Source: Methanoregulaceae archaeon (lineage in GTDB: Bacteria; Armatimonadota; Fimbriimonadia; Fimbriimonadales; Fimbriimonadaceae). From it: a DNA stretch of 64,000 bases. Made by a program: the position numbers and the translations under genes. Under the pieces are notes generated by a model. The model saw nothing but the letters and a program-made list of their open reading frames with translations, had not been told where the DNA came from and ran no database searches. Shown piece by piece: positions 11,961-14,296 of this stretch (the stretch's first letter is position 1; each line of letters begins with the position of its first letter). Location of the stretch: assembly GCA_020850325.1 (NCBI GenBank), contig JADZEW010000026.1, positions 248,001 to 312,000 of the forward strand, in the 5' to 3' direction.

Positions 11961-12605
11961 CTACTGGCTTTTCTTCACAAGTTCGACGATGTCCTTCTCA
12001 GCCTTTTTCCCCGACCACTGGCCCACGATCTGGCCGTCCTTCACGAGGAAGAACGTCGGGACGACGCGCACCTGCCACGCGGACCATGTCTGCTTGTCAT
12101 CGAACAGCACCGGGTTCGCAAACTTGTTCTTGCCGAGAAACTTGTCGAAGTCGGCTCGTTTCTCGTCGATGCTGACACTCAGCACGGTCAATCGCTCCGC
12201 GAACTGCTTCTGCACTCGTTCGAGGACGGGCTTCATTTCCTTGCACGGCACGCACCAGGTCGCCCAGAAGTCGACAAGCACGAGTTGACCCTTCATTGAC
12301 TCCGCGTTCCAAGTCTTCCCTCCCGTGTCTACCAAAGCGAACGTCGGCATCGGGCGCGGCAGGACGGTCGGGAGATATGCCTCCGGATCCTTCTTGAACT
12401 TCGCCACCTCGCTCGGGTTGCAGAAGTAGTACGCCTGACCCTTGTATCGCACACCGGCCGCGGCCTTCTCGGCACCATGGCCAGATCCCCCCGCCTCGCA
12501 AACAACGCAGACCTGAGCGGCCTTGGGCAGTTCGCCCTTTGGGATATCGACCGGCTTGTCTTGACCCGGTGCGAGAAGTGAAGCGGTGAATAGAAGGGTC
12601 AGCAT
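11961..12605 (-). CDS. YHS-like plus TlpA-type thioredoxin, exported
   Basis: 214 residues. A short signal peptide (about residues 1-14) is followed by a CVVC (Cys33, Cys36) ... YYFCNPSEVAKFKKDPEAYL segment that resembles the YHS metal-binding domain. Residues ~84-214 are a TlpA/ResA-like thioredoxin with WATWCVPCK (Cys118, Cys121) and a cis-Pro segment VVPTF. It likely works outside the cytoplasm as a thiol oxidoreductase. It is 9 nt downstream of the interrupted barrel-like gene and is the last gene of the arsR-metallothionein operon, which supports a metal-linked role. Confidence 0.85.
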   Translation of the reverse strand: MLTLLFTASLLAPGQDKPVDIPKGELPKAAQVCVVCEAGGSGHGAEKAAAGVRYKGQAYYFCNPSEVAKFKKDPEAYLPTVLPRPMPTFALVDTGGKTWNAESMKGQLVLVDFWATWCVPCKEMKPVLERVQKQFAERLTVLSVSIDEKRADFDKFLGKNKFANPVLFDDKQTWSAWQVRVVPTFFLVKDGQIVGQWSGKKAEKDIVELVKKSQ

Positions 12606-12614
12606 GGTGTGTTC

Positions 12615-13265
12615 TTAGAAACGGACGCCGAAGCTCACGCCCCAGTATCGTCCTTTGACCAGCAAGAGGCTTGTCGAGGTCTCAAGAGTCTTGTACGTCA
12701 GCAACCAGTGGGTGTTACGCCCATCGTGCTGGACCATCGCGTCCCACTGCGGATGCAGCGAGAGGTTGACGCCAAACGGAAAGTTGAATCCGCGCTCCCA
12801 ACTCGAGTAGTTGATCGACACATACGGTGCGATTCTCGTATTGGGCAACGACTTGCCAAACGTGATGTAGGTCGCCCGCGTGCCTTCCGGCGAGAGAATC
12901 CGGTCGCTCGATGTTCCGAGCGAGACCATCGGTTGATGGGCGGTCTCAAAAAGCAGGGTGTAGTTGGCGGTCGGCGATAGTTCGCCGACCACGGCGTTGT
13001 ACTCGAGCCCAACGAGGAGTCGATCAGTCACTCCGTAGGCCAGATTGAATCGCCAACGGGGCCGAGCGACGGGTACGTCGGCAAATCTCCCCGTCAGTTG
13101 AAACTGTCCCTTGATGTTCCCCGACCCGAGGAACTGGCCTTCGCCGGGTCACCCAGTTCACGTGGGGACCTGGGTCGGCCGCGTCGGCGGCGCCGCCTGC
13201 TGCGCTTCTTGGGCAAGCACTTGCGCAGACGAAACCGCCATGAGAAGTACGAGGGAGTTTCGCAT
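12615..13265 (-). pseudogene. Barrel-like secreted protein interrupted by two in-frame TGA codons
   Basis: One frame runs from ATG 13265 (overlapping the metallothionein stop as TGATG) to the stop at 12615. It starts with a signal peptide (MRNSLVLLMAVSSAQVLA) and a proline-rich stretch, then meets TGA at 13160-13158 and again at 13151-13149, and continues in the same frame with alternating amphipathic strands ending ...WGVSFGVRF. A terminal Phe is typical of outer-membrane barrels. Both stops are one G-to-A change from TGG. It may be a recent pseudogene, a sequencing problem, or read-through; only a GTG at 13031 offers an internal start. Confidence 0.65.
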
Positions 13266-13405
13266 CAGCAGCAGTCGCAGTTCGGGCAGTTCTCGGTGCA
13301 CGGGCAGTTGCCGTTCGCACAGCAAGGGCATTTGCACTCGCCATCTTGGCAAGGCGGACAGGCGCAGGGGCCATTGGCACAGCAGGGACAGGTGGTTTCG
13401 CTCAT
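13265..13405 (-). CDS. Metallothionein-like Cys-rich peptide (46 aa)
   Basis: 46 residues with 16 cysteines, mostly as CxC, CC and CxxC, with repeated CPCCANGxC units; no aromatic residues. This is the composition of a metal-sequestering metallothionein, though the spacing differs from the SmtA family and I cannot assign it to a named class. The ATG overlaps the ArsR stop as ATGA and its TGA overlaps the next ATG, so it is translated as part of the operon. Co-expression with an ArsR/SmtB regulator that carries a CxC site matches the classic smtB-smtA arrangement (there divergent, here one operon). Confidence 0.85.
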   Translation of the reverse strand: MSETTCPCCANGPCACPPCQDGECKCPCCANGNCPCTENCPNCDCC

Positions 13406-13791
13406 TTCTTCGTATCCTCCGATCGGTCGAGTTGCCCCGGACCGAGTACGCAAACGTCGTTCTTCCGCAACTGAATCCGCTCTTGAACCCGGACCTGGTC
13501 GCGGGCAATCCGGCGGTCGGCTTCAAGCGCCGAGCGGTTGCTGGCAATGATCGTCTCGATCAGCGGCCGTGCTTCGGCAGTGAGCGCGTAGCTCACCATC
13601 TTATGGCGACGGCTCGTCTCCACCACACCCGCCTGTCGGATCGTCTGCAGGTGCGAGCTGAGGGTGCTCTGCCCCATCTCGAGGGCGTCGACCATCTCGC
13701 ACACGCAGAGGTCCGACTGCAGCAACGCGTAGAGAATGCGCACCCGGGTGGGATCGCTCAACGCCTTACCGAGCAGAACAACGTCGTTCAT
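13402..13791 (-). CDS. ArsR/SmtB-family metal-sensing repressor
   Basis: 129 residues. Winged helix-turn-helix with LSDPTRVRILYALL at residues 11-24, a DLCVCEM segment (Cys29, Cys31) matching the alpha-3 thiol metal site of ArsR/CadC-type sensors, and GQSTLSSHLQTIRQAG as the recognition helix. The C-terminal ~30 residues extend beyond the minimal fold. The thiol site suggests As, Cd, Pb, Hg or Cu rather than Zn. It begins the operon and abuts its own operator palindrome. Confidence 0.92.
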   Translation of the reverse strand: MNDVVLLGKALSDPTRVRILYALLQSDLCVCEMVDALEMGQSTLSSHLQTIRQAGVVETSRRHKMVSYALTAEARPLIETIIASNRSALEADRRIARDQVRVQERIQLRKNDVCVLGPGQLDRSEDTKK

Positions 13792-13829
13792 GTCACATCA
13801 TGATATCACGATATGACAGAACATGTCAA
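13791..13829 (-). promoter_or_regulatory. Promoter and operator of the ArsR-metallothionein operon
   Basis: TTGACA at 13829-13824, 18 bp spacer, TATCAT at 13805-13800, and 8 nt to the ArsR ATG at 13791. A 28-bp near-perfect palindrome (13791-13818) with outer arms TGTCA/TGACA and a perfect central TGATATCA covers the -10 region and touches the start codon; only two base pairs of the dyad mismatch. This is a good candidate ArsR operator. The layout repeats that of argR. Confidence 0.8.
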
Positions 13830-13846
13830 CGCGGCAATGGGACCGG

Positions 13847-13852
13847 TACCCT
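13847..13852 (+). promoter_or_regulatory. -10 box (TACCCT) of the phosphatase gene
   Basis: TACCCT is 6 nt before GTG 13859, with no ribosome-binding sequence. It is divergent from the ArsR promoter and only ~20 bp from its -35 box. Confidence 0.5.
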
Positions 13853-13858
13853 CTTGGG

Positions 13859-14296
13859 GTGCGCATTCTCTTCGTTTGCCTAGGCAACATCTGCCGAAGT
13901 CCCATGGCGGAGGCCATTCTCCGGCACCAACTCGATGAAGCAGGACTCGACCATATTGAGGTGGATTCGGCGGGTACCGGAGCCTGGCATGCGGGCGAAC
14001 TTGCCGACCCCCGAACCCGACGAACCCTTCGCGCACGAGGCATTCACTACGACGGCCGCGCTCGGCAACTGCGCGCGGAGGACTTCGAGGTCTTTGACCT
14101 CATCCTCACCATGGACTCCCAGAACTTGCGGGATACCCTGGGTTGGCGCGAAGCGCGCGCTGAGAAAGTGCGCCGGTTCTTGGAGCACGACGTGCCAGAC
14201 CCCTACTACGACGAGGCGCAGGGGTTCGAGCGGGTCTACGAGATGCTCGACACCGGCTGTCGGCGGCTAATAGCGGAGATCGCCGAGAAGGCTTAG
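13859..14296 (+). CDS. Low-molecular-weight protein-tyrosine phosphatase
   Basis: 145 residues from GTG 13859 (VRILFVCLGNICRSP); a longer reading from 13823 would run through the promoter. P-loop CLGNICRS at residues 7-14 with Cys7 nucleophile and Arg13, and general-acid Asp in DVPDPYYD. Members can dephosphorylate tyrosine kinases of capsule export or arginine-phosphate groups (YwlE/PtpB type). The arsenate reductase ArsC relatives share the fold, and the arsR neighbour makes that worth a thought, but the residues fit phosphatase better. Its stop overlaps that of the convergent gene by 4 nt. Confidence 0.92.
   Translation: MRILFVCLGNICRSPMAEAILRHQLDEAGLDHIEVDSAGTGAWHAGELADPRTRRTLRARGIHYDGRARQLRAEDFEVFDLILTMDSQNLRDTLGWREARAEKVRRFLEHDVPDPYYDEAQGFERVYEMLDTGCRRLIAEIAEKA

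Follow-up and report, generated by a model that had tools for sequence, protein, structure and literature searches.

Organization of the locus

The window analysed here, a stretch of 64,000 nucleotides, carries on its minus strand four tightly packed genes, which encode an ArsR-type regulator, a 46-aa Cys-rich peptide, a protein whose frame contains two in-frame UGA codons, and an exported thioredoxin with a YHS domain (YHS-TlpA). An ArgR-like gene lies downstream of the last one. The first three genes overlap, with the ArsR stop and the peptide start sharing ATGA and the peptide stop and the third-gene start sharing TGATG, while a gap of 9 nt separates the third gene from the YHS-TlpA gene; the four-gene operon proposed in a preliminary description of this locus is real.

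The regulator (129 aa; 13402..13791, minus strand) had been described as an ArsR-type protein with a CxC site, and our analysis agrees: it matches NF033788 with 75.8 bits, above the cut-off of 55, and PF01022 at 5.6e-17, and its DNA-binding region contains a CVC within a ...DLCVCEM... segment, so that the ArsR/SmtB family profile and the metal-site Cys residues are both present. Such a CVC site recalls those of As and Cd sensors. TsoR (NF045707), an ArsR that belongs with a different group of selenoproteins, was rejected as an assignment, with a match of 38.8 bits that is far below the cut-off of 115. Directly upstream of the ArsR start lies an operator-like near-palindrome of 24 bp (TCATATCGTGATATCATGATGTGA; 13793..13816, minus strand), in which 20 of the 24 positions are self-complementary. 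The same element is found in the congener (L080), and related sites (14-18 of 24) precede ArsR in four other genera (L083, L155, L137 and L100). Self-regulation of ArsR through this element is plausible.

A gene for an LMW phosphatase (13823-14296, plus strand) diverges from ArsR. Its listed start is about 30 bases from that of ArsR and abuts the operator-like palindrome, and because of this closeness the gene may really begin further downstream, at 13856. We did not adopt an arsenate-reductase role for this gene, whose loop is a plain CLGNICRS.

The second gene (13265..13405, minus strand) encodes the peptide of 46 residues and 16 Cys that had been noted earlier. It is metallothionein-like by composition and matched no family in Pfam or NCBIfam, including the known metallothionein families. 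The fourth gene (11961..12605, minus strand; 214 aa) encodes the YHS-TlpA protein, again as previously described, with a signal-peptide-like start and a TlpA/ResA-type thioredoxin domain with the motif WCVPC. PF00085 (1.3e-19) and PF00578 are above their cut-offs and ResA structures match at 1e-16, while the YHS domain (2.4e-6) reaches 27.9 bits, slightly below the Pfam cut-off of 30.3. This gene contains no in-frame UGA.

The double-UGA gene and its conservation

The third gene (12615..13265, minus strand) had been taken for an ordinary open reading frame encoding a signal peptide and barrel-like strands. A signal-like N-terminus and barrel-like strands are indeed there, but the frame is not ordinary, since it contains two in-frame TGA codons that had been overlooked. 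The first (position 36 of the product; 13158..13160, minus strand) and the second (position 39; 13149..13151, minus strand) are nine bases apart, in the arrangement UGA-N6-UGA, and both are in-frame TGA codons in nearly all homologues. Read through, the gene yields 216 aa, MRNSLVLLMAVSSAQVLAQ...TQVPT-U-TG-U-PGEGQFLGSGN..., in which a signal peptide and the PT-U-TG-U-PGEG segment are followed by about 170 beta-rich residues of a barrel-like domain ending in VRF. The longest conventional open reading frame (13031..12615) starts too late to include either the signal peptide or the best-conserved stretch of the protein.

Homologues were found in 24 genomes of a set comprising the source genome and 60 relatives, mostly with two TGA codons. 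Searches by phylum gave matches in 66 of 291 Armatimonadota genomes, 15 of 294 Planctomycetota genomes (the phylum of a Phycisphaerales record) and 20 of 297 Acidobacteriota genomes (the phylum of an Acidobacteria record), with 56, 16 and 21 matches, respectively, having exactly two in-frame TGA codons, 93 in total. Among the matches listed for the three phyla, none has an in-frame TAA or TAG. The motif itself varies, as UTGU, UVGU, UAGU, USGU, UPGU, UPSU, UPLU and UPVU. The family is not universal, since the phylum to which a Dehalococcoidia genome belongs gave no match in 301 genomes, and a search of plasmids and viral contigs found nothing. Beyond the second UGA, the comparison of two congeners indicates purifying selection (dN/dS 0.147/0.935), and this value, together with the recurrence of the two TGA codons in dozens of genera, argues that the gene is not decaying.

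Two further groups of sequences appeared in these searches. In three different genera (G008, G014 and G158), the copies L100, L101 and L164 are identical in sequence and are accompanied by ArsR, a Cys-rich frame and TlpA, with a copper P-ATPase adjoining in L100 and L101; they look like a recently transferred metal island. In addition, distant relatives (L105:4590-5204, L106:5161-5676, L108:4121-4780, L162 and L163) have other Sec motifs at the same place, among them SGUPIUPASGF, GGUPLUGGGAFGAG and CPLUVGGGYGAG, and seem to represent another group of barrel-type selenoproteins, whose members have either two Sec or one Cys and one Sec.

A SECIS-like hairpin downstream of the UGA codons

A SECIS-like hairpin (GUUCCUCG-GGU-CGGGGAAC; 13116..13134, minus strand), recognized by compensatory changes and a covariance model, has a stem of 7-8 bp and begins 14 nt past the second UGA and 23 nt past the first. 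In 44 aligned rows from Armatimonadota, 95.3% of the cells are paired, compared with 82.8% after shuffling, and 35 double-sided changes were counted against 7.8 in the shuffled alignments, none of 500 shuffles being as high; versions of the hairpin slid along the alignment pair at 47-61%. When the alignment is extended to 64 rows of the three phyla, the stem sequences differ and the position stays the same, with 91% pairing against 68% shuffled; 100 double-sided changes were counted, where shuffling gave 31 and, in 1000 shuffles, never more than 53. All 64 rows have the G at offset 34, in the loop. For the Gly codon that the loop contains, 30 of 33 cases use GGT, against 71 of 543 in the remainder of these genes (p=1e-23).

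The window, itself a training sequence, reaches 71 bits with the covariance model, and two copies outside the training set that have Cys at the second site (L107 and L161) reach about 31 bits. On three copies with Cys at both sites the model gives 14 bits, 10 bits and no site, so the hairpin is weak or absent where Cys has replaced both codons. A search of Rfam returned nothing relevant. As there is a single hairpin only, the alignments suggest that one SECIS-like element serves both UGA codons.

Decoding of the two UGA codons

Cys codons (TGC/TGT) replace the first UGA in L090, L154, L103, L104 and L157, and Cys replaces the second in L159, L161, L103, L104 and L157, which gives the variants CAGU and CPGU at the first site, UAGC at the second, and CAGC at both. 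The source genome (G000) contains SelA, SelB, SelD and tRNA-Sec, and its SelD (L166, G000:C10:34730-35632) has one in-frame TGA of its own, at VSCAGUASK; about 200 bases from this SelD gene there is a TlpA-like match. A strong tRNA-Sec match was found in 21 of 22 carriers of the family and in 14 of 39 non-carriers (Fisher p=3e-6, a value that overstates the evidence somewhat because related genomes are not independent). The sole carrier without such a match is a genome that is 73% complete.

The 93 two-TGA matches, the exchanges with Cys, the covariation of the SECIS-like hairpin, the Sec machinery and the tracking of tRNA-Sec lead us to propose a double-Sec family, in which both UGA codons of the third gene almost certainly encode selenocysteine (Sec36 and Sec39). 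We considered it hardly credible that the TGA codons are true stops and the gene a pseudogene, a sequencing error or two short open reading frames. Standard gene calling would indeed split the frame in this way, but the two codons are conserved in dozens of genera and three phyla with purifying selection beyond them, Cys takes their place in relatives, and the hairpin covaries. Conservation, dN/dS and the Cys replacements rule out a pseudogene, and the presence of the two TGA codons in a contig of the congener (L051) and in many genomes rules out a sequencing error. We give just as little weight to a read-through that inserts Trp or another standard amino acid: the frame does stay coding, but relatives have Cys and not Trp at both sites, the presence of the family tracks tRNA-Sec, the hairpin is lost or weak in copies with Cys at both sites, and TGA terminates ordinary genes here, including those of ArsR and the Cys-rich peptide. 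A code in which TGA means Trp is ruled out by the same two facts, the Cys replacements in relatives and the use of TGA to end other genes at this locus.

The barrel-like domain and the genomic neighborhood

The N-terminus of the double-Sec protein is signal-like, and its UxxU motif, which lies outside any thioredoxin or peroxiredoxin fold, directly precedes the beta-barrel-like domain. PF13505 (OMP_b-brl) matches 5 of 25 family members weakly (best 2.2e-5; 0.091 for the protein of the window), and 33 of 40 members end in a C-terminal Phe. A PDB profile search with the barrel family found nothing. The protein is, with good probability, an outer-membrane barrel. AF2 on two sequences gave no confident structure (pLDDT 31), and the location is therefore based on the low-scoring PF13505 matches and on the aromatic residue at the C-terminus.

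At the 46 Armatimonadota loci with Sec-containing copies that were read, a TlpA gene adjoins in 24 and ArsR in 11, and many copies have none of ArsR, a Cys-rich peptide and TlpA as a neighbor. In Acidobacteriota, a TlpA-type thioredoxin is part of the same polypeptide in 9 of 12 copies, placed before the UPxU motif and the barrel, with a His-rich linker in three of these fusions. This adjacency in one phylum and fusion in another make it very likely that a TlpA-type thioredoxin is the partner of the double-Sec protein. Six of the Acidobacteriota fusions (L183, L185, L186, L187, L189 and L190) also have an unassigned Cys-containing domain (for example GQIVCCLDCWNRADRKTVAYG) or Cys pairs (CCEQ...CCAK) before the thioredoxin; no Pfam domain was found in the N-terminal parts of L183, L185, L186 and L189.

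Cys-rich peptides occupy the position before the double-Sec gene in several genera (G001, G003, G030, G147, G156, G008/G014/G158 and G126), and also in a second family (G068). Upstream of a UAGC copy (L159, in G164), the Cys-rich peptide has a signal peptide (CCCGTKCKDCCGTTCGCKTGDC...), as a secreted counterpart of the cytoplasmic one. YHS domains are fused to the Cys copies L103 and L104, and in L181 YHS, UPGU and barrel are joined in one fusion, directly downstream of a YHS-TlpA gene. A CusA/CzcA pump is encoded upstream in two Planctomycetota loci (L193 and L195), and a copper-type P-ATPase adjoins L100. Neighbors of these two kinds recall Cu and Ag, and the neighboring genes taken together point to no single metal. 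The ArsR genes, Cys-rich peptides, YHS fusions, His-rich linkers and CusA/CzcA and copper P-ATPase neighbors make it fairly likely that the double-Sec protein handles a soft metal.

The preliminary description had read the operon as a metal-handling pathway that links its parts and had looked to the conservation of gene order as one of its tests. Support has grown for the metal interpretation and for the connection between the parts: the order, or fusions of the same domains, recur in three phyla, and the operator-like palindrome precedes the operon. The double-Sec nature of the third gene had been missed.

Candidate function

The operon may encode an ArsR-controlled device of the cell envelope, in which a diselenol on an outer-membrane barrel, reduced by thioredoxin, binds or reduces a soft metal; we hold this with moderate confidence. 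The barrel would be in the outer membrane with its UxxU tail in the periplasm, where the TlpA domain would keep the Sec pair reduced, as a diselenol and not a diselenide. The pair would bind or reduce an ion of a soft metal or metalloid, probably handed over by the YHS site, and the captured ion would be exported or safely held, while the Cys-rich peptide would buffer the same ion in the cytoplasm. When the ion appears, ArsR would leave the near-palindrome at 13816..13793 and release the operon.

A different role for the same selenoprotein would be an envelope peroxide- or disulfide-reducing system formed by UxxU and thioredoxin, without metal binding by Sec; in that case the metal genes would be present because soft metals cause thiol stress. 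The thioredoxin fusion and adjacency fit this role, as do the absence of metal-gene neighbors at many copies and the fact that most selenoproteins are redox enzymes (PMC13188914). We regard it as unlikely, since Cys-rich peptides, ArsR, YHS fusions, His-rich linkers, CusA/CzcA and a copper ATPase occur at several independent loci and the UxxU tail is not within a thioredoxin or peroxiredoxin fold. The presence of two Sec in one short tail and the tracking of the Sec trait could also indicate a Se-rich envelope protein for selenium storage or supply, but Cys-only homologues (L103, L104 and L157) keep the architecture, there are merely two Sec per about 216 residues, and the neighbors are metal and thiol genes, which leaves this role very improbable.

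Metal handling by the Sec pair remains the reading we prefer. In its fullest form, one SECIS would serve two Sec at UGA-N6-UGA, and the thioredoxin-reduced diselenol on the barrel would make the envelope protein a twin-Sec metal trap or metal reductase. Present in at least three phyla, it would be either ancient or much transferred between them, and it would have escaped notice because annotation breaks the gene at the UGA codons. For this combined statement we consider the chances even.

Comparison with known selenoproteins and metal-response systems

A 2026 review (PMC13188914) lists 119 selenoprotein families, among which UxxU is confined to Prx-like, NF041115 and FmdB, and notes that Sec may be a metal ligand in several metal-linked selenoproteins. 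When 25 double-Sec family members were compared with NCBIfam, there were zero matches at E<=0.1, and Pfam gave only the weak OMP_b-brl matches plus YHS in fused copies. Among open PMC papers that connect selenoproteins with Armatimonadota or Fimbriimonadia, with YHS, with TlpA/copper/outer membrane or with metallothionein/ArsR, we found no description of this family. Because its architecture is not in the review, NCBIfam has no match and the Pfam matches are weak, the double-Sec (UxxU) protein is, as judged by these comparisons, a new selenoprotein family, absent from NCBIfam, Pfam and the 119 families.

This adds a family with two Sec and a new architecture, an exported UxxU tail on a barrel with a thioredoxin either fused to it or encoded alongside. 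The phyla concerned are not discussed in the review (PMC13188914), and standard gene calling truncates the double-UGA genes. Two questions can now be put to a direct test. One is how both UGA codons, nine bases apart, could depend on a single hairpin; the other is whether paired Sec residues bind or reduce metal in the envelope.

Of the closest known families, NF041115, NF041027 and NF049945 are in Table 1 of the same review. NF041115, a metal-binding, putative mercuric reductase selenoprotein, also has UxxU, two Sec and a metal context; the double-Sec family differs in its signal peptide and barrel-like domain, and its 25 members gave no match to this or any other NCBIfam model at the threshold above. 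NF041027 (MtrB/PioB-type barrel) and NF049945 (TonB-dependent receptor, FCYXU) are alike in having Sec in a predicted outer-membrane barrel, but they have one Sec, other motifs and unrelated barrels, and the double-Sec family matches neither. NF041384 (YHS domain (seleno)protein) and NF041054 (ResA-like WAxxUGC) share domain types with the YHS-TlpA partner, which lacks an in-frame UGA and is far below their cut-offs (16.7 vs 70 bits and 32.7 vs 300 bits, respectively). Units of the SmtB-SmtA type combine an ArsR/SmtB regulator with a metallothionein. The operon described here resembles them in pairing an ArsR-family regulator with a Cys-rich peptide; unlike them, its peptide matches no family, and it adds a predicted exported selenoprotein and a thioredoxin.
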